Source: Advenella sp. S44
Lineage (GTDB): Bacteria > Pseudomonadota > Gammaproteobacteria > Burkholderiales > Burkholderiaceae_B
Reading direction: 5' to 3'
Length of the DNA: 64,000 nucleotides
NCBI RefSeq assembly: GCF_002810445.1
Contig: NZ_NEXS01000003.1
Coordinates: 868,001-932,000, forward strand
In this document: one piece after another, positions 3,681 through 43,792 of the stretch
Layout of the letters: every line of letters begins with the position of its first letter
Position numbering within the stretch: the stretch's first letter is position 1
Program-made: the position numbers and the translations under genes
Notes under the pieces: generated by a model
Databases searched by the model: none
Seen by the model: only the letters and a program-made list of their open reading frames with translations
Told to the model about the DNA's origin: nothing

Positions 3681-5367
3681 ATATGTGGCTTCATATGGTC
3701 CGACCACGGGTGACCGCATCCGCCTGGCCGATACCAATCTGTTGATCGAAGTCGAAAAAGACCTGTGTGCGGGCGGCAATGAAGCGGTTTTCGGCGGCGG
3801 AAAATCGGTGCGCGAGTCAATGGGGCAATCGTGTGCCACACGTGCTGAAGGCACCCCCGATCTGGTGATTACCGGCGCTATTATTCTCGATCATTGGGGC
3901 ATTATCAAAGCCGATGTGGGCGTTCGGGACGGTCGTATCGTGGCGTTGGGCAAGGCCGGCAACCCCGACACCATGGATGACGTACACCCCGATCTGGTGA
4001 TCGGGCCTTCGACCGAGATCATGTCTGGCAATGGACTCATTATGACGGCGGGTGCTGTCGACACGCACGTTCATTTCGTTGGTCCGCAGATGCTGCAAAT
4101 CGCATTGGCCTCTGGCACAACGACGGTGACAGGGGGGGGATCCGGGCCGACCGAGGGGTCCAAGGCGACGCTGGCCACGCCGGGTGCGTGGTGGATGGAA
4201 CGCATGCTCGAGGGTTTTGAGCCGTGGCCCGTCAATGTACTCATTCTGGGGCGCGGCAATACGGTATCCCACGAGTCCTTGTGGGAGCAATTGCGCGCAG
4301 GTGTGGGGGGCTTCAAAGTCCATGAAGACTGGGGCGCCACGCCGGCGGTTATCGACGCAGCGCTTCAGGTCGCAGACGCATCCGGTGTCCAGGTTGCGAT
4401 TCACTCCGATACCCTTAACGAGGCCGGGTTTGTCGAGGACATGCTCAAGGCCGTTGCCGGACGTTCGTTCCATTCGTTCCACACCGAAGGTGCGGGCGGC
4501 GGGCACGCGCCCGATATTATCCGGATTGCCGGGGAATCCAATGTGTTGCCGGCCTCCACCAACCCGACCCGTCCTTTTACCCGCAATACGGTGGACGAAC
4601 ATCTGGACATGGTTATGGTGGCGCACCATTTGAATCCTCAGGTCCCTAACGATCTGGCCTTTGCCGAAAGCCGTGTACGGGCGGGCACGATCGCCGCTGA
4701 AGATGTGCTGCACGATATTGGCGCGCTGTCGATCATGTCTTCCGATGCGCAGGCGATGGGTCGTATCGGTGAGGTTGTCATCCGTACCTGGCAGACGGCA
4801 CACCGAATGAAGCAGCTTCGCGGCTCGCTGCCGGGCGATACGTTGGCCGACAATCACCGGGCGCGCCGCTATGTGGCCAAATATACCATTTGCCCTGCCA
4901 TCGCCCACGGGCTGGAAAAGCATATCGGATCGATCGAAGTGGGGAAAATGGCCGACCTGGTACTGTGGCAGCCTGCACTTTTCGGCATACGTCCTACGGT
5001 TGTATTCAAGGGTGGCATGGCAGCGACCGCAGCGCTTGGCGATCCCAATGCGTCTATTCCGACGCCGCAGCCGGTGCTTGAGCGTATTGGCTTTAATGTG
5101 TACTCGCCGGCGGCTGCCGCTACCAGCGTGGCCTTTGTTTCGCAGGTGGCTATTGATGACGGGCTAGCGGGCCGCTTGAATATCCGGCGCCCACTGGTCG
5201 CCATTGAAAACTGCCGGGCTCGCACCAAGGCTGATCTGCCTGAAAACTCGGCTTTGCCGCATATAGAGGTAGATCCCGATAGCTACGCCGTCAAGGTAGA
5301 CGGGGAGCTGATCGATCATGAACCTGCACTAGAGGTTCCCATGGCTCAACGATATTTTCTATTCTGA
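3658..5367 (+). CDS. ureC: urease subunit alpha (catalytic)
   Basis: A 569-residue catalytic subunit. Nickel ligands and active-site residues are visible: His137 and His139 (D-T-H-V-H-F), the carbamylated lysine Lys220 with His222 (K-V-H-E-D-W-G), His249, His275 and Asp363 (S-S-D-A-Q-A-M-G-R). The mobile-flap His324 is present, but the adjacent Cys that is usual in V-C-H-H-L is Ala322 here. The C-terminus P-M-A-Q-R-Y-F-L-F is canonical. I chose the ATG at 3658, preceded by GGAGG, rather than an upstream ATG at 3619, because M-A-K-I-S-R matches family starts. Confidence 0.97.
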
Positions 5368-5380
5368 AGCGAGGTACGGA

Positions 5381-6052
5381 ATGGCGCATAGTGCCGCGCT
5401 GTTATTGCTGGCAGACGGACGTCTTCCTGCTGGCGGATATGCCCATTCCGGCGGCCTGGAGCCAACGGTACATATCCATGGACTGACTGATGCCGCTGGC
5501 CTGGAAGGCTTTCTTGAAGGGCGCGCTGCGACAACCGGCTTGGTGGCCGCATCATTTGCCGCTGCGGCATGCCGGGCAGCCCAAACGGGACAACATGCAT
5601 TGCTTGGCGAACTGGACAGGCAACTGGATGTTCGCACGCCGTCCAAGGCGACACGCGCGGTTTCCAGGGCGCTCGGACGCCAGCTATGGCGTGCCGTCAC
5701 CAGTATTCGATCTATTGACGTGCCAGCACAATCGCGGCGCGATATGCACCAGCCTGTCGTATACGGCATGGCGGCCGCGGCATTCGGACTGGAGCCCAGG
5801 GAAGCTGCACAGATTGTCCTGCATGAATCGGTAGCCGGGCCGGCGGCAGCTGCAGTCAAGGTACTCAGTGTCGATCCGTTCGCCGTGCAGGCGGCCCTGG
5901 CGCACCTGACCGATTTTCTTGATACGCTGGCGCAGCAGGCGAGCGAGTATGCAGATACGCCGCCCGACGATTTGCCGGCCCTGGGCACGCCTTTGCTGGA
6001 TTTGGCTGCTGAACACCACAGGAATTGGGGGGTACGTCTCTTTGCCTCGTGA
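5381..6052 (+). CDS. ureF: urease accessory protein UreF
   Basis: A 223-residue UreF. L-L-L-A-D-G-R-L-P-A-G-G-Y-A-H-S-G-G-L-E near the start is the hallmark, and the helical middle and L-F-A-S C-terminus also fit. UreF works in the UreD-UreF-UreG complex that delivers nickel and CO2 to apo-urease and gates UreG GTP hydrolysis. It follows ureC after 13 bp, exactly where ureE would normally come first; no ureE frame exists between them. Confidence 0.95.
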   Translation: MAHSAALLLLADGRLPAGGYAHSGGLEPTVHIHGLTDAAGLEGFLEGRAATTGLVAASFAAAACRAAQTGQHALLGELDRQLDVRTPSKATRAVSRALGRQLWRAVTSIRSIDVPAQSRRDMHQPVVYGMAAAAFGLEPREAAQIVLHESVAGPAAAAVKVLSVDPFAVQAALAHLTDFLDTLAQQASEYADTPPDDLPALGTPLLDLAAEHHRNWGVRLFAS

Positions 6053-6077
6053 TTTTCTAACCCCCCAGCCTGGCGTC

Positions 6078-6989
6078 ATGACTGCCCGAGCAACGCTTGT
6101 CACCCGTCAAGACCTTGACCATACCGGCCGCCGTGTCAGCCGAGTGCATACACTGCGGTCTCAGGCACCGCTCATATTGCGCCCTACGCAGCCCAAAGAG
6201 CCGGAACCGCAGGTGTTGCGTGCCGCTTCCGTGGCGCGGGTGTCGCTCGTCTCGGGCGCGGCAGGACCGCTGGGCGGCGACGACTTCGAGTTAAATATTC
6301 GCGTGGGTACCGGTAGCACTTTACTGCTCAATGAGATTTCATCCACGCTGTTACTGCCTGGTGCACGCGGCGGGCAGTCCAGTATGAGAATCAATATTGC
6401 CGTGGAAGACGATGCCACGTTTGTCTGGATGGCCGAGCCGGTGATTGCGGCACATGGATGTCGCCATGAGCACACGATCAATATCGAACTGGCCGCCAGC
6501 GCTCGCCTGTTCATGCGCGACGCACTGCAGTTCGGGCGACACAAGGAGCAACCTGGCAATCTTCTTCAAACCCTGCGCGTCAAACGGGATGGCGAACCTT
6601 TGTTCAGCCAGCAACAGCAAATCGGGCCGGACGCGGTGGGGTGGTGCAGTTGCGCGGTCCTCGGCAAGCATAAGTGTATGGGCACGGTGCTTGTTGTAGA
6701 TCCGCAATGGTGTGCAATCCAGCCTGAAACCAATGTGTTTGCCGTCGATGCAGCGCTGTTGCCGCTAGAGGGACCCGCCGTTATGATCAGTGCGCTCGCG
6801 GCGGAAACCTGGACTTTGCGCAAACATCTGGAGCATGGCATCAATCTGCTGGGAGAGCGCTGGTCCGTTGCGGCCTCTGAGTCTGCACGAGATGACCAGG
6901 ATGCCGGTTGCTATCGGCATAAGCCCGACCCTGCTATCCCATCTTCTGACACTATTCGACAAGGAAACGACTATGAGTACACAAACTGA
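6078..6989 (+). CDS. ureD: urease accessory protein UreD
   Basis: About 303 residues, divergent but recognisable Ure[15 protein letters not shown], a W-M-A-E-P-V-I-A-A-x-G-C segment and the D-A-L-Q-F-G-R region correspond to the usual stretches for the shared beta-helix fold. It is the scaffold that binds UreABC and recruits UreF/UreG. Start: ATG 6078 chosen; a TTG at 6042 behind a G-rich ribosome site and overlapping ureF is an alternative. The 3' end overlaps ureG by 17 bases. Its position after ureF, not ahead of ureA, is less common. Confidence 0.85.
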
Positions 6990-7719
6990 AAATATTCGTA
7001 CGCGCGCATTGCGACTGGGCGTAGCAGGGCCGGTGGGCACCGGCAAAAGTTCGGTTGTTGCCACATTGTGCCGAACCCTGCGTCATGAGTTCCAGATCGG
7101 CGTAATTACAAATGACATATACACCGATGAAGATGCCCGCTTCCTGAGGTCCGAAGGCGTGCTGCCGGTCGAACGCATTCGGGCGGTCGAAACCGGCGCC
7201 TGCCCGCATACTGCCATACGCGACGACGTCACAATGAATTTGCTTGCGGTCGAAGACCTGGAGAAGGACTTTGCGCCACTGGACATTGTGCTTATCGAGA
7301 GCGGCGGCGATAACCTGACCGCCACTTTTTCTCCATCCCTGGTAGATGCGCAAATTTTTGTGATCGATGTGGCCGGTGGGGGTGATGTGGCGCGCAAAGG
7401 CGGGCCAGGCATCGGCCGTGCTGATCTGCTTATCGTCAATAAGGTAGACCTTGGACCACATGTTGATGTCGATGTCGAACAAATGCTGACTGACGCCCGG
7501 GCTGCGCGAGGCGGTGCGCCCGTGCTTGCTCACTCCAAAAAATATCCCGATACGGAAAAGGCGCTTTGCGACTGGGTTCGACAATTGCACGAGGCGCACG
7601 TCAGCGGCACGCATATACCCACGGACCCGGGTCCGATGGCGCCTCATTTTCATGCAACAGAAGACGGAGGCTATATCCATCGACATGGGGATGAGGCGCA
7701 CCCTCATGTGCATCGTTGA
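6973..7719 (+). CDS. ureG: urease accessory GTPase UreG with His-rich C-terminal tail
   Basis: A 248-residue SIMIBI-class GTPase. Walker A G-P-V-G-T-G-K-S spans 19-26, the metal-binding Cys-Pro-His motif is at 77-79, E-S-G-G-D-N-L at 109-115 and the guanine-specificity N-K-V-D at 156-159. Usual UreG is about 205 residues; the extra C-terminal stretch from about residue 205 contains ten histidines. The ATG at 6973 follows AAGGA and lies inside the end of ureD. With no ureE in the cluster, the tail may hold nickel for delivery (inference). Confidence 0.95.
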
Positions 7720-32210: not shown

Positions 32211-33971
32211 TTAGGACCATGAATCCCGCAGGGTAACACAGCGGTTCAACACCGGGTTATCACGGGTGGAATCTTTGGAGTCGGCCACGAAATAGCCCAG
32301 TCGCTCAAATTGCCAGCGGGCGCCGGGTGTGGCGGTAAAACCGGGCTCAAGCCAGGCACTGACGCGCTGCACGGAGTCCGGGTTCAGATAGTCAAGGAAA
32401 TTCTTTTCGCCGCTGTCGGGGGACGGGTCAGTGAAGAGCCGGTCGTAAAGCATGACGGTAGCCGGCACGGCGTGCGCCGCGCTAATCCAGGTAATATTGC
32501 CTTTGACCTTGACGCTGTCGGCGCCCGGCGTACCGCTCTTGGTGTCGGGAAGATACTCGGCATATACCTGTGTGATGTTGCCGGCTTCATCCTTGTCAAA
32601 GCCGGTACATTTGATCACATAGGCATATTTGAGTCTGACGGTGTTGCCCGGGAACAGACGGAAATACTTTTTAGGTGGATCTTCGCGGAAGTCGTCGCGT
32701 TCTATGAGCAATTCGCGCGAAAACGGAAACTCGCGTCGTCCGGCCTGCGCATCATGCGGATTACGCGGGGCACTGCATGATTCGGTCTGGTCTTGCGGAT
32801 AATTGGTGATGATCAGCTTGATGGGGTCGAGCACGGCAACGCTGCGTTCGGCAATCGGATCCAAGTCATCGCGCAATGCCTGCTCCAGCAGACTATAGTC
32901 AATACGCGAGTCGGACTTAGATACGCCCAGGCGATCACAGAACAGCTTGAGCGCTGCGGGTGTATATCCGCGGCGACGCAAGCCGGCAAGCGTTGGCATG
33001 CGCGGGTCATCCCAGCCAGTGACATGGCCTTCCCGCACCAATTGCAGCAACTTGCGCTTGCTGGTAACCACATGCTTGAGGTTCAGGCGTGCAAATTCGT
33101 ACTGGTGCGGCAGCGGGTCGCGCAACTGGCCCAGTTCCACCAGGCGCGCCAGCACCCAGTCATAAAACGGCCGCTGGTCTTCGAATTCCAGCGTACAGAT
33201 GCTGTGGGTAATGCCCTCAAGCGCATCTTCGATAGGATGTGCGTATGTGTACATCGGATAGATGCACCAGTCGTTGCCTGTACGATGGTGTGCGGCATGA
33301 CGGATCCGATACAGGACCGGATCCCGCATATTGATATTGGGCGAAGCCATATCCACCTTGGCACGCAAGGCAAGACTGCCATCGGGATGCTTGCCTACCT
33401 TCATTTCACGCAGCAACGTGAGCGATTCTTCGGCCGGGCGATCCCGCCACGGCGAGTTGTTCCCGGGGGCGGTGAGGGTGCCGCGGTTCAGCCGGATCTG
33501 CTCTGGCGTCTGTTCGTCGACGTAGGCATATCCGCCTCTGATGAGCGCTTCGGCAAAGTCGTACATATAGCCGAAGTAGTCGCTGGCGAAATAGCGGTGT
33601 TGCTGGCCATCCGGCCCGGTCGTTGTAAACCCGAGCCATTGGACAATCTCGTCAATGGCATCCACGTATTCTTGCTCTTCTTTTTCGGGATTGGTGTCGT
33701 CAAAGCGTAAATGACAGACGCCGCCATAATCGCTCGCCAGTCCGAAGTTCAGGCAGATGCTTTTGGCGTGCCCGATATGCAAGTAGCCGTTAGGTTCGGG
33801 CGGGAAACGGGTGCGGATGCGAGCCGGATCCTTCTGCGCATTCTGCAGAGCCGAAGCGGGGCCGGGTTCGCCGGCCCATTTTTTTGATTGATAGCGGTCG
33901 TGGCTAAGATCGTTTTCAATGATGGTTCGCAAAAAATTGGCGGCAGGGATCTCTGGCGTTGAAGCAGACAT
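32211..33971 (-). CDS. glnS: glutamine--tRNA ligase
   Basis: A 586-residue class I synthetase. R-F-P-P-E-P-N-G-Y-L-H-I-G-H-A-K-S carries the HIGH motif at 65-68, and V-V-T-S-K-R-K-L supplies the KMSKS equivalent. The C-terminal anticodon-binding beta-barrels are complete. It charges tRNA-Gln directly. It is 21 bp upstream of minC on the same strand, so the min operon may receive read-through from glnS. Confidence 0.97.
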   Translation of the reverse strand: MSASTPEIPAANFLRTIIENDLSHDRYQSKKWAGEPGPASALQNAQKDPARIRTRFPPEPNGYLHIGHAKSICLNFGLASDYGGVCHLRFDDTNPEKEEQEYVDAIDEIVQWLGFTTTGPDGQQHRYFASDYFGYMYDFAEALIRGGYAYVDEQTPEQIRLNRGTLTAPGNNSPWRDRPAEESLTLLREMKVGKHPDGSLALRAKVDMASPNINMRDPVLYRIRHAAHHRTGNDWCIYPMYTYAHPIEDALEGITHSICTLEFEDQRPFYDWVLARLVELGQLRDPLPHQYEFARLNLKHVVTSKRKLLQLVREGHVTGWDDPRMPTLAGLRRRGYTPAALKLFCDRLGVSKSDSRIDYSLLEQALRDDLDPIAERSVAVLDPIKLIITNYPQDQTESCSAPRNPHDAQAGRREFPFSRELLIERDDFREDPPKKYFRLFPGNTVRLKYAYVIKCTGFDKDEAGNITQVYAEYLPDTKSGTPGADSVKVKGNITWISAAHAVPATVMLYDRLFTDPSPDSGEKNFLDYLNPDSVQRVSAWLEPGFTATPGARWQFERLGYFVADSKDSTRDNPVLNRCVTLRDSWS

Positions 33972-34076
33972 ATTTTAAAATTTCAGTAAATCGACAATAT
34001 CGACCATTTTGCCATGTTCAGCGGTTAGACTCACGGGAATCGCTCAACTGCCCCGAAATTTAAACAGCTATCGAGT

Positions 34077-35237
34077 ATGTGGGATATTTCATCATTACAG
34101 CTGGCAAAACTGCAGTTCTTCAGTTCGCTCTCGTTCTTCTCCACTTTCGGCTTATGTACGGTCGTCCTGGCCTGGTTGCTGCTGGTGTGCAAAGGCATGA
34201 CGCATTGCAGGGCTGCCGATAGCCGCTGGATGGATATGTACCGCTTCTGGGTGCGCATTTTTGCGCTGTCCATGACCGTGTCGCTGCTTGGCATGGTGTT
34301 CCTGCTGATACAGTCGGGTGCCTTGTGGCCGAATTTGTTTGTTCGGCTGGGGCCTGTCAGCGGCCCGCTTATCGTGCTGATCGCCGCAATTACTTTTATC
34401 ATCAAACTGTTTATTACAGATGTCATGCTATATCGGCAGGGAGTGCTCTCGTCCTGGCTGCATAGTGTTTTTGTCTTGCTGGCTGCGCTCGGCCTGACGG
34501 TTATTGCCATATTGCTGGTCGCCTTTCAGAGCTGGCTTCATTTTCCTGCCGGACTGATGCCCGACACCAGCCCGCTTGCTCTGGCCGACTGGCGCGTTTT
34601 TATCTCGCAGGGGCAAACGTGGCGCCGCGCTATTTTCATGGCGGCAATGGCTTGCCTGGGAACCGGTGGACTCATGGTTTCGATCAGTGCCAGCGAAGCC
34701 ATTGCTAAGCCGCTGAATTCGGCTGAGCAACTGGCTTTTCGAGTCGGTACGGGGCTGACCACCGTGGCACTGATTCTGCTGGCGACCAGTGGCATGCTTT
34801 TTCAGACTGAGCTGTTCCGGCAGGCAGCGCCGCTGCCCGCAGTGGCGCTGTGGGCGCAAAAGCTGGTATTCGGACTGTGCTTTTTGATCTGCCTCGTGTC
34901 TGTTGTCCAGTGGGCCTGGTATCTGAAGCGGCGCAGTGATTTTGGCAAATTGCCTCGATGGCTGCTGCATGCCCTGGTCTGGACTGGCCCGGCCAGCTGG
35001 CTGGTGCTGTGGCTGATTCACTTGCTGCTGTCGTTGCGTGACGGTCAGTATTTCGTCAATGGGCTGGTGACGTACGCTGAAGCATTCAGCAACCAGCAAG
35101 GCACGTTGTTAATCGGGACGGTGACCGTGGCAATGTGGGTGTTGCTTGCCGTTATTGCGGCCGGCTTTGTTTTTCTGGCACGCCGCGCCGCCCGGTACGG
35201 AGTCGTGCCGGTACGAAAAATCCGGAGAACGGCATGA
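34077..35237 (+). CDS. CydA-like membrane protein lacking heme ligands
   Basis: A 386-residue polytopic membrane protein (about nine hydrophobic segments) aligning by eye with cytochrome bd subunit I: L-A-K-L-Q-F at 9-14 corresponds to S-R-L-Q-F, Q-S-W-L-H-F-P-A-G (151-159) to N-G-W-M-Q-N-P-V-G, and the T-G-G-L-M-V-S-I-S-A-S block (196-206) to the helix after His186. The heme ligand positions His19, His186 and Met393 of the E. coli enzyme, and Glu99/Glu107, are not conserved (Phe, Met, Leu/Val, hydrophobics). The Q-loop is missing, explaining the short length (E. coli CydA is 522). Function unknown. It overlaps the next gene by ATGA. Confidence 0.75.
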   Translation: MWDISSLQLAKLQFFSSLSFFSTFGLCTVVLAWLLLVCKGMTHCRAADSRWMDMYRFWVRIFALSMTVSLLGMVFLLIQSGALWPNLFVRLGPVSGPLIVLIAAITFIIKLFITDVMLYRQGVLSSWLHSVFVLLAALGLTVIAILLVAFQSWLHFPAGLMPDTSPLALADWRVFISQGQTWRRAIFMAAMACLGTGGLMVSISASEAIAKPLNSAEQLAFRVGTGLTTVALILLATSGMLFQTELFRQAAPLPAVALWAQKLVFGLCFLICLVSVVQWAWYLKRRSDFGKLPRWLLHALVWTGPASWLVLWLIHLLLSLRDGQYFVNGLVTYAEAFSNQQGTLLIGTVTVAMWVLLAVIAAGFVFLARRAARYGVVPVRKIRRTA

Positions 35238-36289
35238 TTGATACCCTGGCTGGCTCTTTGGGACTCAATAGCTACGATCCGGGATTCTGGATGCCGCTGC
35301 TTTGTTTTACCGTGTTTCTGGGCGTGTCCGTGGCGGGCGCTATTCTGGACGGGGTCGATCTGGGCGTAGGCATGCTGATGCCTTTTGCTCAGCCAGAGCA
35401 ACGGGATCGAATGTTTACGTTCCTTGGGCCCTGGCGCGATATGAACGTCTTCTGGATTTTCCTGGGCTGCGCCATCCTGCTCTCGGCCTTCCCGAAAGCA
35501 TGGGCCTATGTAAGCAGCGTTCTGTATCTGCCCTTGATGCTGCTGGCTGCAGGTGCGTTGCTGCGTGGCGTATCCTATGAATTTCGGCTGCGCGCTCTGG
35601 CCGGTGGACGTACGGTATTTGCGGCTGCATTTGCGCTGGGATCGCTGATGACTGCGTTTGGACAGGGCCTGGTTCTGGGCCGCATTGCGGTCAATTTCGG
35701 CACAGAGCCAGGTAGTGAGCTGTTCGCGGTTTTCATTGCGTTTTGTACGGTGGCCGCTTTTATTTTGCTGGGCGCTGCCTGGTTGCTGATGCGGGTAGAG
35801 GATGATTTGCAGCTGCAGGCCCGCGGATGGGTGCGCCGGGCGGCAAGGCTCACGGCCGCTGGCGTGGTGGCCGTTTCTGTCGCCCTGGGCATGGTCAATG
35901 GCGGCGTGTTTTTCAAGTGGACCGAATCGGCAAGGATGCCGGTGGTGCTAACGTACTGGTTCGCCTTGCTTGTCATGTTCGTGATTATCGAGCTGGTGGT
36001 GCGCAAAGTCCAGCGTGCCCGGATCCTCATCTGGCTGCCGTTCATACTGACGGTGTTGATTGTAATGAGTGTGCTTGCCGGGCTGGTATTCAGTGTTTTC
36101 CCGTTTTTTGTTCTGGATGAACTGACAATCTGGGAGAGTGTCACCGGCCTTGGAACCACCCGGGTGCTGGTGGCGGCTTTTGCATTCTTTTTGGTGGTGT
36201 TGCCTTTGGTCACGCTGTGGTATTACCGGGATATGCTCGGCAAGGAGCGCAAGGCCAGGGATGTGCTGTTTATGAAGCGGATGGACTGA
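35234..36289 (+). CDS. CydB-like membrane protein
   Basis: A 351-residue membrane protein resembling cytochrome bd subunit II: D-G-V-D-L-G-V-G-M-L at 39-48 (D-G-F-D-x-G-V-G in the family), G-P-W-R-D-M-N-V-F-W at 65-74 (x-H-W-D-G-N-x-V-W), R-G-V-S-Y-E-F-R for the cytoplasmic turn, and F-P-F-F-V-L-D-E-L-T-I-W-E near the end. The start ATG 35234 overlaps the stop of the CydA-like gene, indicating a heterodimer. No CydX-like small gene was found after it. Its 3' end overlaps the convergent sensor kinase gene by 20 bases. Confidence 0.8.
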   Translation: MIDTLAGSLGLNSYDPGFWMPLLCFTVFLGVSVAGAILDGVDLGVGMLMPFAQPEQRDRMFTFLGPWRDMNVFWIFLGCAILLSAFPKAWAYVSSVLYLPLMLLAAGALLRGVSYEFRLRALAGGRTVFAAAFALGSLMTAFGQGLVLGRIAVNFGTEPGSELFAVFIAFCTVAAFILLGAAWLLMRVEDDLQLQARGWVRRAARLTAAGVVAVSVALGMVNGGVFFKWTESARMPVVLTYWFALLVMFVIIELVVRKVQRARILIWLPFILTVLIVMSVLAGLVFSVFPFFVLDELTIWESVTGLGTTRVLVAAFAFFLVVLPLVTLWYYRDMLGKERKARDVLFMKRMD

Positions 36290-37736
36290 CCAGGGGCAGG
36301 GTAACCGTCACCAGCAGTCCGCCGCTATCGCTGCTGTCCAGTCTCAGTCTGCCGTTATGGGCGTTGACAATGGTTTCTGCCAAAGACAATCCCAGGCCGA
36401 CACTGCCGGTCATGGTGCGGGCCGAATCCAGGCGGGAAAAGGCGCGCAAGGCTTCGGCGCGTCGTTCCGCCGGAATCCCGTCACCATGGTCGGCTACACT
36501 GATGACGGCTTTGTCGTCGGCCACTGTAAGCGACACCTCGACTGGCGGACGGCCATGCTTGAGCGCATTGCTGATCAGGTTGTCCAGAACGCGGCCCAGC
36601 GACAGCGTGTCGGCGCTGGTGTATGCCGCTGTGGCAGGCTGGGCGCGCAAATGCACCGGACTGCCGGCATTGTGCCAAGACGCTACGCGTTCCTCAATCC
36701 AGTGGCCGATATCGATCGTCTTGAATTTGTAGGTGGCCAGATCGGAACCGCGGACATAGCTGATGAACTGGTCGATCATATCCTGCATTTCGTGCACATC
36801 GTTGCGCATGCCTTCCTTGAACGTTACGTCATCGGTCAGCTCTACGCGCAGTCGCATGCGCGCCAGCGGGCTTTTCAGGTCATGCGGCAAACCGGCCAGC
36901 AAGGTTTGCTGTACGGCTTTTGATTCTTCCAGCGCGTCCAGCATGGCATTGAACCGCTCACCCAACTGGCGGGTCTCGTTCGGGCCTGCCGGGGTGACAC
37001 GCTCGGGCCGGCCCTGGGCCAGTTTATCTGCTGCCAGGGTAAGGCGGGTGAGCGGGCGCGTGATATGCCAGGCAAAACCGGCGGCCAGAATCAACAGCAA
37101 ACCCGTCAGGCTCAGCCAGGCAATGGTAATCGCATGCATATTGGGCGGCTGGATTCGATCCAGCGGGATGACCAGCCACTCGCGAATGAATTTGGTGCCG
37201 TCATCATCCGATTGCAGGGAGATGAACATGCGCGGCGTCGGCCCGCGTGTCAGTCCGACCCGCGTGCCGTCGTCCAGTTCAATATTGAGCCGTCTGACGA
37301 TTTTCAGGATGTCGTTGCTGGGCTCATCGGTCAGGCGCGGCGGGCGAGGGGGTTTTTGAGCGGCAGCACGACGGGCCCGCTCCACCTCACGGGCGGCTTC
37401 GGGAACGGGCGGGCGTGGCGAAGGGACGGGCGCGTCCAATGTGCCACCGCGGTGTCGTCGATTGGCATAGGGGTCGGTACGGGAAAGCAGGTACCACCGT
37501 TTCTGGGACGCTTCGATAATGAATTCTGCCCGGCGGTTTTCAGGAATTTGCGATACGGCTGAGCGAAGCGTGCGGATGGTCGTGGACAGATAGTTGACGA
37601 CAACGTCTTCCAGGAAACGTTCCTTGAGATAGTTGCCGACTGCGAAACTGCCGAGCTGCACCAGAATCACAGTGCCAAGGATGAAGAGGATCATCTGCAG
37701 CCGCAAGGAGCGCGGCCACAGCGAGGGTTTTATCAT
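36270..37736 (-). CDS. EnvZ-type sensor histidine kinase
   Basis: A 488-residue membrane kinase. TM1 about 14-34, a periplasmic region with a Pro/Arg-rich insert (about 100-135), TM2 about 203-222, then HAMP, the phospho-acceptor His285 (L-P-H-D-L-K-S-P-L), N box N-L-I-S-N-A-L-K-H at 386-394, D-H-G-D-G at 416-420 and G-L-G-L at 447-450. It resembles EnvZ/RisS sensors of Bordetella relatives. It overlaps the upstream regulator gene by four bases. Confidence 0.9.
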   Translation of the reverse strand: MIKPSLWPRSLRLQMILFILGTVILVQLGSFAVGNYLKERFLEDVVVNYLSTTIRTLRSAVSQIPENRRAEFIIEASQKRWYLLSRTDPYANRRHRGGTLDAPVPSPRPPVPEAAREVERARRAAAQKPPRPPRLTDEPSNDILKIVRRLNIELDDGTRVGLTRGPTPRMFISLQSDDDGTKFIREWLVIPLDRIQPPNMHAITIAWLSLTGLLLILAAGFAWHITRPLTRLTLAADKLAQGRPERVTPAGPNETRQLGERFNAMLDALEESKAVQQTLLAGLPHDLKSPLARMRLRVELTDDVTFKEGMRNDVHEMQDMIDQFISYVRGSDLATYKFKTIDIGHWIEERVASWHNAGSPVHLRAQPATAAYTSADTLSLGRVLDNLISNALKHGRPPVEVSLTVADDKAVISVADHGDGIPAERRAEALRAFSRLDSARTMTGSVGLGLSLAETIVNAHNGRLRLDSSDSGGLLVTVTLPLVSPSAS

Positions 37737-38440
37737 GCGTCAGGAGAGAATCGGTAGCCAATGCCCCAGACAGTTTGAATCCAACGTGGATCTTTCGGGT
37801 CGTCTTCGACGGCACGACGCAGGCGCAGGATGGCGATGTCAATGGCGCGGTCATTGCGTTCGCCTTCGTCATCGTCGCGAGCCAGTGCAAGCAGGCGTTC
37901 GCGGGACAGCGGTTTGCCGGAGTTCTTGACCAGGGCTTCGAGCAGATTGATTTCGCCGCCAGTCAGCTTGACCTGGACATTGTCCTTAAATAGCTGGCGT
38001 CGGGCCGGATCAAAAGTGAAAGGTCCGAAATGCACCGGCGTTTCCTTGACCAGTGCGGAAGCGCCTTTCTTGCGGCGCAGGACAGTTTCGACGCGAGCCA
38101 GTAGTTCCCGCGGGTCAAACGGCTTGCCGAGGTAGTCGTCTGCACCCGATTCGAGGCCAATAATGCGATCGGCGGTTTCGTCCTTTGCCGTGAGCAAAAT
38201 GACCGGGATGTCTTCATTCTGGGCGCGCAGCCTGCGGCAGGTTTCCACACCGTCGCCGCCGGGAAGCATGCGATCCAGTACGATCAGGTCGGGGGAAAAT
38301 TTGGTAATGCGCTGGGTAATGTCACTGGCGTCGGGTGCGAGCAGGGTATCGTAACCGTGTCGGTTCAGATATTCCGCGAGAAGCTGGCGCAGGGCAGGAT
38401 CGTCATCGACGACGAGAATTTTTGTCAGTTGCTTGTCCAT
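37733..38440 (-). CDS. OmpR family response regulator
   Basis: A 235-residue OmpR/PhoB regulator: acidic D-D-D at 12-14, phospho-acceptor Asp56 (V-L-D-R-M-L-P-G), Thr84, Lys106 (G-K-P-F-D-P), and a winged helix from about 135 with D-R-A-I-D-I-A-I-L-R-L-R-R and a W-G-I-G-Y-R-F end. The partner is the downstream kinase. Family members of this shape (OmpR, RisA) control porins and envelope genes; targets here cannot be read. Confidence 0.92.
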   Translation of the reverse strand: MDKQLTKILVVDDDPALRQLLAEYLNRHGYDTLLAPDASDITQRITKFSPDLIVLDRMLPGGDGVETCRRLRAQNEDIPVILLTAKDETADRIIGLESGADDYLGKPFDPRELLARVETVLRRKKGASALVKETPVHFGPFTFDPARRQLFKDNVQVKLTGGEINLLEALVKNSGKPLSRERLLALARDDDEGERNDRAIDIAILRLRRAVEDDPKDPRWIQTVWGIGYRFSPDA

Positions 38441-39289: not shown

Positions 39290-39988
39290 TTAGCAGGTGC
39301 CACGCAGTTTCCGGTCAAGTTCGCTCAGGCGCTCTGGCGTGCCTACGTCGGTCCAATTGCCGGTGTAGTGGTACCCTTCGACGGAGCGGGTACCCATGGC
39401 CATGCGCAGCAGCGGGGCCAGTGGCGCAGGCTGCCCGTCAGCGATACTGCGAAACAGGCTGGGATGAAACACGCCTATGCCGGCGTAGGTGAGCGCAGGT
39501 TCGCCCTCCTGGCGGGGGCTCAGATAACCCTGGGCGTCCAGGCCGAAGTCGCCTTGCGGATGGTGTTGCGGGTTGTCCACCATCAAAAGCCAGGCCTGGG
39601 TAGGGGAATCATGCAGCCGGTTGACCACGCTGACGGCCTGGAGGGGATCCCAGTCACACCATACATCGCCGTTGATGACCAGGAACGGCTGCTCGCCCAG
39701 TAGCGGCAAGGCATGGGCGATGCCGCCGGCCGTTTCCAGGGCGGTATCTTCACGGGAGTACTGGATCGCCACATCATACTGGCTGCCATCGCCCAGCGCG
39801 GCCTCGAGGTGATCCCCAAGCCAGGCATGGTTGATTACAATGTCACTTATACCAACAGCGGCCAGGCGTTCCAGATGATGAACAATCAGAGGCTTGTCGT
39901 TGACCGGGAGCAGCGGCTTGGGAAGGCTATCGGTCAGGGGGCGCATGCGTTCGCCGCGCCCGGCCGCCAAAATCATGGTTTGTATCAA
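39290..39988 (-). CDS. murU: N-acetylmuramate alpha-1-phosphate uridylyltransferase
   Basis: A 232-residue nucleotidyltransferase with L-A-A-G-R-G-E-R-M-R-P-L-T at the N-terminus and K-P-L-L-P-V-N-D-K-P-L. Together with the preceding kinase gene (ATGA overlap) this matches MurU, which forms UDP-MurNAc from MurNAc-1-P in the recycling route that bypasses fosfomycin-sensitive MurA. The pair beside lptD-surA is the same neighbourhood as in Pseudomonas putida. Confidence 0.88.
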   Translation of the reverse strand: MIQTMILAAGRGERMRPLTDSLPKPLLPVNDKPLIVHHLERLAAVGISDIVINHAWLGDHLEAALGDGSQYDVAIQYSREDTALETAGGIAHALPLLGEQPFLVINGDVWCDWDPLQAVSVVNRLHDSPTQAWLLMVDNPQHHPQGDFGLDAQGYLSPRQEGEPALTYAGIGVFHPSLFRSIADGQPAPLAPLLRMAMGTRSVEGYHYTGNWTDVGTPERLSELDRKLRGTC

Positions 39989-41067
39989 AATGTGTATCCT
40001 ACTTTGGTTTCGATATTGTCCAGGCGATCGAGCAGGCGCAGCAGGGGTCGAAAGGCATTGTAGCGGCCTGCCACCTGGCGCACATAGGCGTTGACCCGGG
40101 GCATATGCTGTTGATAATGCGACTTGCCGTCACGAATCGACAGGCGTGCAAAAACACCCAGAATGCGCAAATTGCGCTGCAAACCCATCCATTCGTAGTC
40201 AACGTGAAAGTCTGCAAAATCTGCCGGAACCGGGATGCCGGCGGCTTTGGCTCTTTCCCAGTAGCGAATGGCCCAGTCCAGTTGCTGGGGTTCTTCCCAA
40301 GTGGTGCGGGCGTCCATGACCAGCGACACCAGGTCGTAGGAGACGGGGCCGCGCACCGCATCCTGAAAATCAATGATGCCGGGTCCGGCGCCGTTTCCCG
40401 GATGATCGTTGATCATCAGATTAGGAGAATGGAAGTCCCGGTGGACAAAGCAGGTAGCCTGACGCGCATTATGTGCCGAAAGACGGTCAAAAATCGTTTC
40501 CAGCGCGGCGCGTTCCTTGTCGGTCAGCGTCGTATTGCAATGGCGGCCTATATACCAATCCGGGAAAAGGGCAAGCTCCTCGCGCAGTTTTGCGCCGTCG
40601 TAGACGGGCAATTGCTCTGTCGGCACCTGCTGCATCCGGACCAGCGCGTCCAGCGCGCCAAGATAGAGTGCCTGCAGGGATGCGTTGTCGATTCCGTTCA
40701 CGATGCGCTGGTAAAAGGTGTCATGACCAAGGTCGCTCAATAGCAGCAGACCGTCCTCGACTTTGGCTTCAAGAATGGCCGGCACACTCAGGCCGGCGGC
40801 ATCCAGTCGGCGGGCTATGTCGATGAAAGGCCGGCAGTCCTCCTGCGCCGGCGGGGCGTCCATCACGACCAGGCTACCAGTTTCAGTATCAACCCGAAAA
40901 TAACGCCGAAAACTTGCATCACTGGATGCAGGTCGCAGGCTGTCGGTGCGCATACCGTATTTTTCGGCAATCGGGGCCAGCCAGGTCTGCACCAGTGCGT
41001 AGCGGGTATCGGTCATCGTTTCAGTCGGGTTACCGGCGGAAGAGGAAGGGGCTGCGGACGTCGTCAT
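39985..41067 (-). CDS. amgK: anomeric MurNAc/GlcNAc kinase
   Basis: A 360-residue aminoglycoside-phosphotransferase-fold kinase. The catalytic loop F-V-H-R-D-F-H-S-P-N-L-M and the metal-binding I-D-F-Q-D-A segment are clear. AmgK phosphorylates MurNAc or GlcNAc at C1. The first 17 residues are low-complexity; an alternative ATG at 41016 would remove them, but neither start has a good ribosome site. Cotranscribed with murU. Confidence 0.85.
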   Translation of the reverse strand: MTTSAAPSSSAGNPTETMTDTRYALVQTWLAPIAEKYGMRTDSLRPASSDASFRRYFRVDTETGSLVVMDAPPAQEDCRPFIDIARRLDAAGLSVPAILEAKVEDGLLLLSDLGHDTFYQRIVNGIDNASLQALYLGALDALVRMQQVPTEQLPVYDGAKLREELALFPDWYIGRHCNTTLTDKERAALETIFDRLSAHNARQATCFVHRDFHSPNLMINDHPGNGAGPGIIDFQDAVRGPVSYDLVSLVMDARTTWEEPQQLDWAIRYWERAKAAGIPVPADFADFHVDYEWMGLQRNLRILGVFARLSIRDGKSHYQQHMPRVNAYVRQVAGRYNAFRPLLRLLDRLDNIETKVGYTF

Positions 41068-41371
41068 GGATAGGAGTCGTTATAAAGTATTTAATATCAG
41101 GGGCTTGGCCTGTGCTCTGATTTTTATTTCCGTAAATCGGGCGGGCAATACCGTTGCCTGCGGTAGATAACTATAATAACGGGCTAATGTAAAAAAACAG
41201 CAGGCCTCCGATATTTTATGCGGTATCCTCTGGTTTGTCCTGCATCAACAGGCAGTCGCACAAGACCCAATGGGGTTGCGATATATGTTGCAGTATGATT
41301 TTTCCCGTCTCAATCCCGGGGAAACAGGGTAACAGGACAGGTTTCTTCAATTATTTCCGGTAAAAAGCACA
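41068..41371. other. 304-bp divergent region between amgK and lptD
   Basis: A TATAAT at 41172-41177 lies in the right direction for lptD but I see no convincing -35. No frame or RNA is supported. Confidence 0.5.
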
Positions 41372-43792
41372 GTGCGAAAGATCTGTCACCTATTTCTTCT
41401 GACCGTATCCCCGATTGCTTTTGCCCAGACCGGTGTCTCGGTGCCAGGAGTCGGGCAGGCATCTACGCCACGACTGTATGTCTCGCCAATGCTGACCAGT
41501 CCGGCGCTTAACAATGACGAGATCATCACGTTCACCGATAGCGCGCGTGCAGATATCACCAACGATGCCAATACGATTACCCTGGGTGGCAAGGCGCAGA
41601 TTCGTCGACCCGACGCGATCCTGAAGGCCGATACCATCAACTATGACCGAAGCAAAGGCACCGTAACGGCACAGGGCAATGCCCGCCTGTTTCGCGATGG
41701 CAATCTGATCACTGGCCCGGGGCTGCGCTACAACATCGACAAAGAGAATGGCACCATCTCCTCGCCGGTCTACAGCCTGGCCTCTGGCGGCCAGGGCCAG
41801 GCCAGCGAAGCCAATATCATTGACGACAATCACTTCAACCTGAAGAATGCGACCTACAGCGGTTGCGACTGTGAAGAGCCCTTCTGGCAAATACGTTCAA
41901 GCAATGTCGATTTGTACAATGATGAAAACGAAGGGATTGCTGAAGATGGTACGCTCTATATCAAGGGCGTACCGGTCATGTGGTCCCCCTATCTGACCTT
42001 TCCGATCCGGGCAGAGAAAAAAACCGGTTTTCTGACGCCGACCTACGGCATGACCTCGCGCAGCGGCCTGGATTTTACCGTGCCGTATTTTATCAATCTG
42101 GCTCCGCAATACGACCTGACGCTGTATCCACGCTATCTGAGCAAGCGCGGCGCGCAACTGGGTGCAGAATTCCGTTATCTGCAGCCCACGTATTCCGGGA
42201 TGGTCACCGGCACTTATATGCACAGGGATAACGAGCTGGACCGGTCTCGCTGGATGTTTTCCTGGCAGCACGTACAGGCGCTAGGCTCTGTGCTGGGGCT
42301 CAATTTCAACCTGTCGGTAGACTGGAACGCCGTCTCTGACGATGATTATTATCGTGACTTCACGGATATGACAACGATTACCCAGGCGGGCAAAACCTAT
42401 TTGAATCGCAATGTCACCTTGGGGTTCTCTGGGTATAAATACTGGGACGGTTATCTGCAAGTTCAAAAATATCAGACCTTGCAGGATGCCACGGCCGATG
42501 TGATTTACGGGCAGTATGAAAAGGTGCCGGAATTGCGGGTCCATGGCGCGCGCTTTAATTGGCACGGGCTGGATATGGAAACAACCAATACGCTGACCCG
42601 TTTCGAGTATCCCACGTATTTCGGTTCCAAGCTGAGCGATGAAGTCATCGACCGCACCGAAGGGCACCTGCGCCCCGACGGCACCCGCTTTATGTCCTAT
42701 TCCACAATCAGTTACCCGATTGTGCGGCCAGGCTGGCACATTACGCCGAAAATCGGCCTGCATGCGTCCCAGTATGAGACCGACTGGTACACTCGTTACG
42801 GCGAGAATTCGTTCTTCAGCCAGAGCGGTAACCAGCGACGTTCAGTGTCGCGCGTGTTGCCCATTGTGTCTCTGGACGCCGGCATGGTCTTTGAGCGCAG
42901 CACGACGCTTTTCGGATATCCGTCCACGCAGACGCTTGAGCCGCGGCTTTATTATCTGTACATTCCTTACCAGGACCAGAGCGACATTCCCATCTTTGAT
43001 ACCGATGTCAGCCAGTTCGGTTTTGCCAGCGCGTTTTCTGAAAACCGCTATAACGGCGGCTGGGACCGGATCAACAATGCAAATCAGGTCACGCTGGGCC
43101 TGACCTCGCGCTGGTTCGACCAGGACACCGGCTTTCAACGCCTGGCGCTGCAGGTGGCCCAGCGCGTGTACTTTGATTCGCAGCGCGTCACGCTGCCGTT
43201 TGAATCTCCGCGCATCGGCACCAAGTCCGACTGGATCTTTGGAGCTGAAGCGGCGCTGACCAATAAATTTACGACGCAGGCTGCGCTACAGATTGATCCC
43301 TACCAGGGCAAGACGACCCAAGCCTATGCGGCAGCCAAATGGACGCCCAAGCGCCTGACCACGCTGTCGCTGTCCTATCGCTACCAGCGCGACCCTTATG
43401 CCGATGAAGAGCGTACCGACATCAACCAGGGCAATCCGTTGTCCTACCAGTTGCAAGGCAAGGAAACGGTCAGTTTTGCCGGGCAGTGGCCATTTACCAG
43501 CAAGTTGTATGGCGTGGGCCGGGTTGATTACTCACTTAAGGAAAGCCGCGTCACCCAGCATATCGTGGGCGTCGAGTATAAAGGCGATTGCTGCTGGACC
43601 GGGCGAGTTGTTTTGAAACGTTACGCCGTTTCGAAACAGGATTCGAATTCTGCTATATTCTTTCAGTTGGAACTGGCAGGGTTGGGTGCGGTCGGAAAAG
43701 ATCCAATGGAATTGTTAAGACAGAATGTACCCGGATACGAAAGTGTCAACACCCCCGTTCCGGACAGGACATCATTTGAAAGGTATGAATAA
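41372..43792 (+). CDS. lptD: LPS-assembly protein LptD
   Basis: An 806-residue outer-membrane protein beginning with GTG. Signal peptide about 1-18 (cleavage after A-F-A), an OstA/LptA-like beta-jellyroll (about 50-190; G-K-A-Q-I-R-R-P-D-A-I-L-K-A-D) and a large C-terminal barrel rich in aromatic residues. With LptE it inserts LPS in the outer leaflet. Cysteines are few (a C-D-C near 173 and a C-C near 747), suitable for the inter-domain disulphides. Its stop overlaps the surA start by one base. Confidence 0.95.
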   Translation: MRKICHLFLLTVSPIAFAQTGVSVPGVGQASTPRLYVSPMLTSPALNNDEIITFTDSARADITNDANTITLGGKAQIRRPDAILKADTINYDRSKGTVTAQGNARLFRDGNLITGPGLRYNIDKENGTISSPVYSLASGGQGQASEANIIDDNHFNLKNATYSGCDCEEPFWQIRSSNVDLYNDENEGIAEDGTLYIKGVPVMWSPYLTFPIRAEKKTGFLTPTYGMTSRSGLDFTVPYFINLAPQYDLTLYPRYLSKRGAQLGAEFRYLQPTYSGMVTGTYMHRDNELDRSRWMFSWQHVQALGSVLGLNFNLSVDWNAVSDDDYYRDFTDMTTITQAGKTYLNRNVTLGFSGYKYWDGYLQVQKYQTLQDATADVIYGQYEKVPELRVHGARFNWHGLDMETTNTLTRFEYPTYFGSKLSDEVIDRTEGHLRPDGTRFMSYSTISYPIVRPGWHITPKIGLHASQYETDWYTRYGENSFFSQSGNQRRSVSRVLPIVSLDAGMVFERSTTLFGYPSTQTLEPRLYYLYIPYQDQSDIPIFDTDVSQFGFASAFSENRYNGGWDRINNANQVTLGLTSRWFDQDTGFQRLALQVAQRVYFDSQRVTLPFESPRIGTKSDWIFGAEAALTNKFTTQAALQIDPYQGKTTQAYAAAKWTPKRLTTLSLSYRYQRDPYADEERTDINQGNPLSYQLQGKETVSFAGQWPFTSKLYGVGRVDYSLKESRVTQHIVGVEYKGDCCWTGRVVLKRYAVSKQDSNSAIFFQLELAGLGAVGKDPMELLRQNVPGYESVNTPVPDRTSFERYE

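Follow-up and report, generated by a model that had tools for sequence, protein, structure and literature searches.

A CydA/CydB-like gene pair beside glnS

The window analyzed here, a stretch of 64,000 nucleotides of the Advenella sp. S44 genome (contig NZ_NEXS01000003.1), carries two overlapping genes that we call CydA' and CydB' (Table 1). The ATG start of CydB' overlaps the stop codon of CydA' by 4 bp (ATGA), and the frames are full-length and precisely overlapping (386 and 351 aa), as a first-pass annotation of the bare sequence had stated. The CydB' length is counted from this ATG at 35234; the mechanically called open reading frame begins upstream at a GTG (35135). The pair lies on the plus strand and is flanked by glnS and by a histidine kinase/response regulator pair, all three flanking genes being on the opposite strand and carrying names that we assume from the look of their sequences.

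Table 1. Coordinates of the gene pair and associated features in the window
Feature	Position	Strand	Basis
CydA' (CydA-like, 386 aa; related to cytochrome bd subunit I, putatively heme-free)	34077..35237	+	PF01654, alignment, fold model
CydB' (CydB-like partner subunit, 351 aa)	35234..36289	+	PF02322; ATG start at 35234
Intergenic region between glnS and the pair, presumed promoter (putative role)	33972..34076	.	sequence
glnS, divergent neighbor, synteny marker outside the complex	32211..33971	-	ORF; presumed name
CydA' Lys110 codon, at the position of E. coli Glu107	34404..34406	+	alignment
CydB' Arg68 codon, at the position of E. coli Trp57	35435..35437	+	alignment

The kinase and regulator genes occupy 36270-38440, convergent to the pair, and we take the regulator to be of the OmpR type. 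Further downstream (39290-43792) lie presumed sugar-nucleotidyltransferase-like, kinase-like and LptD-like genes, which look like ordinary housekeeping genes. In a collection of genome species, 177 stretches encode relatives of the pair, and we analyzed the best 80. Regulator and kinase clusters homologous to those of the window were present in 62 and 60 of these best 80 of 177 loci, with other genes lying in between in Achromobacter. An FNR-like box was found in none of 78 relatives when the 200 bp upstream of the pair were searched (78 of the best 80 loci).

The pair belongs to the cytochrome bd superfamily by sequence and fold

CydA' matched the Pfam profile PF01654 in two stretches (E = 1.1e-26, 93.9 bits, cut-off 26.2) and CydB' matched PF02322 above the curated cut-off (E = 7.3e-51, 173.8 bits), which agrees with the first-pass alignment of the two proteins with bd subunits I and II. 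Both proteins fell short of the cut-offs of the NCBIfam equivalogs for true bd subunits (19.7 against 1025 bits and 54.5 against 117.3 bits), so that the name 'cytochrome bd oxidase' would be given to the pair on the strength of the domain alone. The Pfam profile search found no soluble domain in either protein.

AlphaFold2 predicted both single chains with good scores (CydA': pLDDT 88.1, pTM 0.89; CydB': pLDDT 87.3, pTM 0.87). When the CydA' model was compared with the PDB using Foldseek, the matches were ten cytochrome bd subunit I chains (TMq 0.80-0.85) followed by nine subunit II chains, and no other fold was matched at E < 0.001. According to the predicted model, the CydA fold is retained in CydA' despite the loss of ligands described below. 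The pair thus combines the CydA sequence family and fold with an adjacent CydB subunit. Membership in the CydAA' group does not fit, as the partner of CydA' is CydB-like (PF02322).

CydA' lacks heme ligands and the quinol-loop glutamate

We aligned 46 heme-less sequences (Advenella CydA' and 45 relatives) with 27 canonical CIO-type CydA proteins, using E. coli numbering. Advenella CydA' carries F21 in place of H19, I102 in place of E99, K110 in place of E107, F187 in place of H186, V264 in place of M393 and S319 in place of E445, and there is a gap at the quinol-loop residues K252/E257. Neither the ligands of hemes d/b595 (H19, E99, E445) nor those of b558 (H186, M393) are therefore present. 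An alignment to the E. coli bd-I structure in the PDB gave the identical pairing for H19, E99 and E107. The first-pass annotation had reported H19, H186, M393, E99 and E107 as lost, and the alignment with canonical CydA recovered none of them in the Advenella protein.

The same losses run through the relatives. All five ligands were present in 27 of 27 canonical rows, compared with none in 37, one in 4 and two in 5 of the 46 heme-less rows, and never more than two. Among the best 80 of the 177 relatives, E99, E107 and H186 were absent throughout (0/80 each; position 107 is K in 79 and R in 1), while H19 was found in 13, E445 in 6 and M393 in 1. These counts support the earlier expectation that such a heme-less relative would not reduce O2. 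In 34 further loci of the family, M393 was a methionine in 4 and H19 a histidine in 1. Over three overlapping locus sets, in which some genomes are counted twice, position 107 was K in 125 of 128 rows and R in the remaining 3. A 2015 survey of proteobacterial bd oxidases speaks, in the part of its text available, of invariant heme ligands (PMC5322542).

The quinol-loop glutamate E257 was found in 0 of 46 heme-less rows and K252 in 25. The first-pass statement that the Q-loop is gone holds for Advenella, and for Pelistega, where the loop is deleted; in most other rows a vestige without E257 persists. R391 is kept in 38 of the 46 rows. No new invariant His, Met or Cys has appeared in CydA' over the 46 rows: the sole invariant histidine, H129, is invariant in canonical CydA as well.

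H19 is retained in 8 of the 46 rows. All eight of these keep W441, and position 445 is E in five, D in two and Q in one; the b558 site, E99, E107 and the quinol glutamate E257 are all absent. The tree described below includes seven of the eight, all of them in one group of eight whose remaining member is Jezberella, which itself lacks H19. Judged by their labels, several of these organisms are from freshwater. On their residues, the H19 rows look like an earlier stage of heme-site loss.

Charged residues fixed in the clade may line the former heme cavity and proton path

Several substitutions separate the heme-less rows from canonical subunits. CydA E107 is K in 45 and R in 1 of the 46 heme-less rows (E in 27/27 canonical), and CydB W57, which corresponds to CydB' R68, is R in 46/46 (W in 25/25 canonical CydB). 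CydA K57 is replaced by R60 (R in 46/46; K in 27/27 canonical), CydB K109 by R120 (R in 46/46; K in 25/25 canonical) and CydB D105 by E116 (E in 46/46; D in 22 and E in 3 of 25 canonical). CydB D58 is conserved as CydB' D69 (D in 42 and N in 4 of 46; D in 25/25 canonical). The proton route of E. coli bd-I is given, in the excerpted text of its source, as D119A-K57A-K109B-D105B-Y379B-D58B, with D58B beside a propionate of heme d (PMC6853902). Its entry residue, D119 of CydA, pairs with G122 of CydA' in a pairwise alignment. Going by the alignment to E. coli numbering, on which our statements about the cavity are based, the charged lining of the chain from the cytoplasm to D58 appears to survive mostly in the pair, with conservative replacements.

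Two CydB' residues outside this set are nearly fixed, namely Met20 (35291-35293; M in 41/46) and Cys171 (35744-35746; C in 42/46), at positions where canonical CydB mostly carries other residues.

The pair is conserved in Alcaligenaceae and under purifying selection

The best 80 of the 177 loci include Advenella, Achromobacter, Bordetella, Alcaligenes, Pusillimonas-like genera, Candidimonas, Sheuella and Pelistega as well as metagenome-assembled genomes (MAGs), some of which are labeled only as Burkholderiaceae, as a beta proteobacterium or as Methylopumilus (L099). L099 (Candidatus Methylopumilus) and L056, a MAG labeled Bordetella parapertussis, both carry an Alcaligenaceae-type locus, and the tree places L056 among rows resembling Sheuella and Jezberella, so that these labels or bins look wrong.

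A CydB-like neighbor on the same strand was found in all of the best 80 of 177 loci. CydB' measured 340-381 aa in 77 of the 78 loci processed, the remaining one being cut by a contig end, and it overlapped the end of CydA' in 46 of 47 non-redundant pairs, with starts chosen by us. Divergent glnS lay upstream in 77 of the best 80 of 177 loci; the three loci lacking it lie on contigs 4.1-8.8 kb long. Over a wider stretch, the genes run minE-minD-minC-glnS (neighbors that we presume to be the min genes from their sequences), the pair and, commonly, kinase/regulator genes. No third gene was conserved with the pair across the best 80 of 177 loci.

Within the family, CydA' was, by our reading, present in 38 of 50 genomes, mostly chosen one per genus (34 of 43 genera), and absent from 12. 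Outside it, we searched 300 genomes at the order level (E 1e-30), which include a few from the family, and, at the phylum level (E 1e-90), 398 genomes that partly overlap with the first set. No sequence outside the family exceeded 395 bits to the family profile in these sets, and the best-scoring outside loci, 25 at the order level and 10 at the phylum level, keep the ligand motifs and are canonical; as the inspection covered the best-scoring loci, a weaker outlier scoring like L173 (342 bits) could be missed. Among the genomes searched, all those with the heme-less pair were of the Alcaligenaceae kind. The conserved clade that the first-pass annotation had envisaged across Burkholderiales thus exists as one group with conserved synteny, and its range is the narrower one of Alcaligenaceae-kind genomes.

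L173 (genome G031, positions 4709-7521) holds the most divergent glnS-linked heme-less pair, with an end branch of 1.6, a C-terminal extension and no YGVVPV tail of the kind typical of the family. Within one genus of mostly Advenella-named genomes, CydA' falls into two groups that are 72-80% (L012-L015) and 33-36% (L006-L011) identical to that of the window, from genomes of 4.3-4.9 and 2.6-3.3 Mb, respectively, hinting at two genera or two histories.

In a midpoint-rooted tree built from 33 heme-less rows and 28 canonical ones (L186, L196, L197 and L199 gave no row), the heme-less set lay on one side of a single branch with support of 100/100, recovered in 100% of 200 bootstrap trees. The inner order is unsure because of four long rows, three of them heme-less, and two heme-less rows of odd composition. 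NG86 dN/dS over 19 species pairs, two of which have dS > 1, ranged from 0.03 to 0.24 for CydA' and from 0.007 to 0.11 for CydB'. Values for glnS were 0.024-0.17 (17 pairs), computed on mechanical open reading frames that in some cases exceed the gene length. CydA' exceeded glnS in 13 of 16 comparable pairs, and CydB' was more constrained than CydA' in 19 of 19. L113 and L067 were dropped when start codons were assigned, which left one of the 20 chosen pairs without values for CydA' and CydB', and L073 and L096 were left out of alignments A2 and A3. The low ratios of both genes point to purifying selection. Neither relaxed selection nor broken frames were seen, except for a split CydB' in L209. 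Together with the single supported group and the CydB partner in 80/80 of the best loci, these data bear out the earlier judgment that decay is less likely. Confinement to this one strain with signs of decay, named at the outset as what would speak against a distinct system, did not emerge: relatives occur across most of the family, with synteny and under purifying selection.

The pair occurs with and without a true cytochrome bd

A search of the rest of the Advenella sp. S44 genome, as the first-pass annotation had suggested, revealed a canonical pair, with CydA at 568 bits and CydB at 331 bits. In two other genomes that are 99% complete (G006 and G042), the single CydA-family and the single CydB-family match both correspond to the heme-less pair; COX1-family matches numbered 5 in G006 and 4 in G042. 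Because these genomes hold the pair without any other CydA or CydB, the pair is independent of true cytochrome bd. Of the three candidate roles named earlier, transporter, sensor and assembly factor, the last is thereby made unlikely as far as cytochrome bd is concerned.

The third bd locus of Bordetella is very probably the heme-less pair

CydA' was found in 14 of 15 Bordetella-genus genomes searched, with K at position 107 in all 14 and glnS beside it in 13; the remaining locus (L214) is only 2.5 kb long. The 4.0-Mb Bordetella-genus genome G552 holds one bd-I-like CydA (judged by its span), CydA' and no CIO-like CydA. In the available passages of McKay et al., 2024, cydAB3 (BB4012-4011) is listed among the high-affinity bd oxidases, an annotation made by homology, and its deletion is described as spanning 2373 bp, starting 41 nt before cydA3 and ending at nt 994 of cydB3 (PMC11257404). 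These limits, as far as the source gives them, imply a cydA3 of about 446 codons.

In L209, the locus of G552, a probable B. pertussis, CydB' is split between two frames, with a G11 homopolymer inside the gene at about 3105. According to the accessible portions of two reports, the C/G tract of BP3224 numbers 9 compared with 6 in BB4011 (PMC1891110), and only half of 14 B. pertussis strains have an intact cydB3 (PMC11257404). The split CydB' of L209 fits these published frameshifts between B. pertussis strains. By length, tract, gene count and locus, Bordetella cydAB3 (BB4012-4011/BP3225-3224) is very probably the heme-less pair. The excerpts at hand from Hachmi et al., 2026 refer to bp3224-3225 as a second cytochrome bd that is unexpressed in the laboratory (PMC12914433), and those from a 2026 review describe these Bordetella oxidases as computationally annotated and uncharacterized (PMC13367067).

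Published phenotypes, taken from the same partial text (PMC11257404), can be read in this light. A strain with cyd3 as its only oxidase could not be made, which a non-oxidase would explain; the low cyd3 transcript level reported there explains it too. Poor growth in 5% CO2 was seen in a strain that lacks five loci, cyd3 among them; the authors leave the cause open, and with five loci missing, a link to the cyd3 pair is a guess. The absence of CydA' from 12 of 50 family genomes and the broken CydB' of the probable B. pertussis copy indicate that the pair is dispensable in some lineages.

Discussion

The closest canonical sequences are the CIO-type cytochromes bd (CioAB), which reach at most 395 bits against the family profile and share the fold, the CydA-CydB pairing and the W/P/G framework. 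The pair differs from them by lacking the heme ligands, E107 and the quinol-loop Glu, by the E107K/R, W57R, K57R and K109R switches and by its linkage to glnS. E. coli bd-I and bd-II (PDB 6rko, 7ose, 7oy2) resemble the CydA' model (TMq 0.83), and CydB D58 and several charges of the proton path are kept or conservatively replaced, whereas Advenella CydA' lacks their heme ligands and long Q-loop. CydAA' and OR-N/OR-C proteins, reportedly placed in the bd superfamily by Murali et al. in 2021, are likewise divergent and share this superfamily with CydA'B'. They differ in using a second CydA-like subunit and in being treated as oxygen reductases; here the partner is a CydB, and Advenella CydA' has no heme site. 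The available part of one report describes OR-N CydAA' as a bd-superfamily type in which CydA pairs with a second CydA-like subunit (PMC12342949). Bordetella cydAB3 is very probably the same pair (cydA3 of about 446 aa, a C/G tract in BP3224 matching the G11 tract of the split CydB'), although published papers present it as a bd oxidase of high affinity or as a second cytochrome bd. In the literature searched, which largely excluded subscription papers, we found no published description of a heme-less CydAB pair.

The pair is real and conserved, and on sequence grounds it is almost certainly not an oxidase. We consider it slightly more probable than not that CydA'B' represents a heme-free 'pseudo-bd' membrane heterodimer, descended from a CIO-type cytochrome bd, that no longer accepts electrons from quinol or reduces O2 and handles protons or ions instead; this estimate covers core and mechanism jointly, and most of its weight comes from the core. 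Under the proposed mechanism, the space once filled by hemes d/b595 would have been rebuilt as a site of fixed charges, with CydA' K110 and with CydB' R68 beside D69. The interface channel and the re-lined cavity might then bind or move protons or small ions without redox chemistry, and an anion would suit the row of fixed positive charges. We read channel and cavity as reused because much of the lining persists even where the cofactors to which it led have been lost. Taken by itself, the idea that the emptied cavity now serves as a charged site for ions or protons is a tentative suggestion, less likely than not. Its fuller version is more doubtful still. It envisages a non-redox ion carrier or channel in which two fixed cations replace the hemes and the proton-entry channel carries small anions or protons, perhaps to keep CO2/bicarbonate or pH in balance. 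Such a carrier would have been retained in Alcaligenaceae, and counting it among the terminal oxidases of Bordetella would be an error. The lack of a conserved third gene and of a soluble domain may speak against ion handling, as may the glycine at the entry position D119 and the Lys-to-Arg changes at two relay positions, which would hinder proton hopping.

The charges may instead be simply a structural lock, and since arginine is a poor proton relay, a salt bridge is the cautious reading. The pair would then be a heme-free structural or regulatory pseudoenzyme that binds quinone, lipid or a respiratory complex and serves as scaffold, assembly helper or decoy, with K110, R68 and D69 as a packing lock replacing the hemes. 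We hold this to be about as likely as ion or proton handling, which leaves it a serious contender though short of an even chance. It would account for Lys-to-Arg switches that keep the charge and make poor relays, for the stronger constraint on CydB' in every pair compared and for the retention of R391; a conserved third gene that might mark a partner is missing from the best 80 of 177 loci, and G006 and G042 make a role limited to bd assembly unlikely, their COX1-family matches leaving room for other oxidases. A still-active, unusual oxidase or electron carrier with fewer hemes and other ligands is improbable. The CydA fold is intact in the predicted model, the Cys and Met of CydB' are nearly fixed, H19 occurs in 13 of the best 80 of 177 relatives, and of the eight H19 rows among the 46, seven have E or D at position 445; this subclade could, from its residues, still hold a high-spin heme. 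Set against this, CydA' has gained no invariant His, Met or Cys, even the H19 rows lack E257 and the two b558 ligands, and the Advenella protein has neither a ligand nor a quinol loop. That the pair is a decaying cytochrome bd relic kept by chance is hardly credible: long branches, the excess of CydA' over glnS dN/dS and the broken copy in the probable B. pertussis would be expected of a relic, but the low ratios over 19 species pairs, the constant CydB partner of nearly uniform length and the new residues fixed throughout the clade would not.

A pseudo-bd of this kind, an oxidase without its cofactor sites that is nevertheless under selection family-wide, would provide a clean natural case of the transition from enzyme to pseudoenzyme, one that comes with marker residues and, in the H19 rows, with possible intermediates. 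For Bordetella, it would mean that the third bd locus, which deletion and expression studies have handled as a high-affinity oxidase, is very probably unable to hold three hemes. If our identification is right, cyd3 is no oxidase, and the inventories of Bordetella bd oxidases in print would need correcting.
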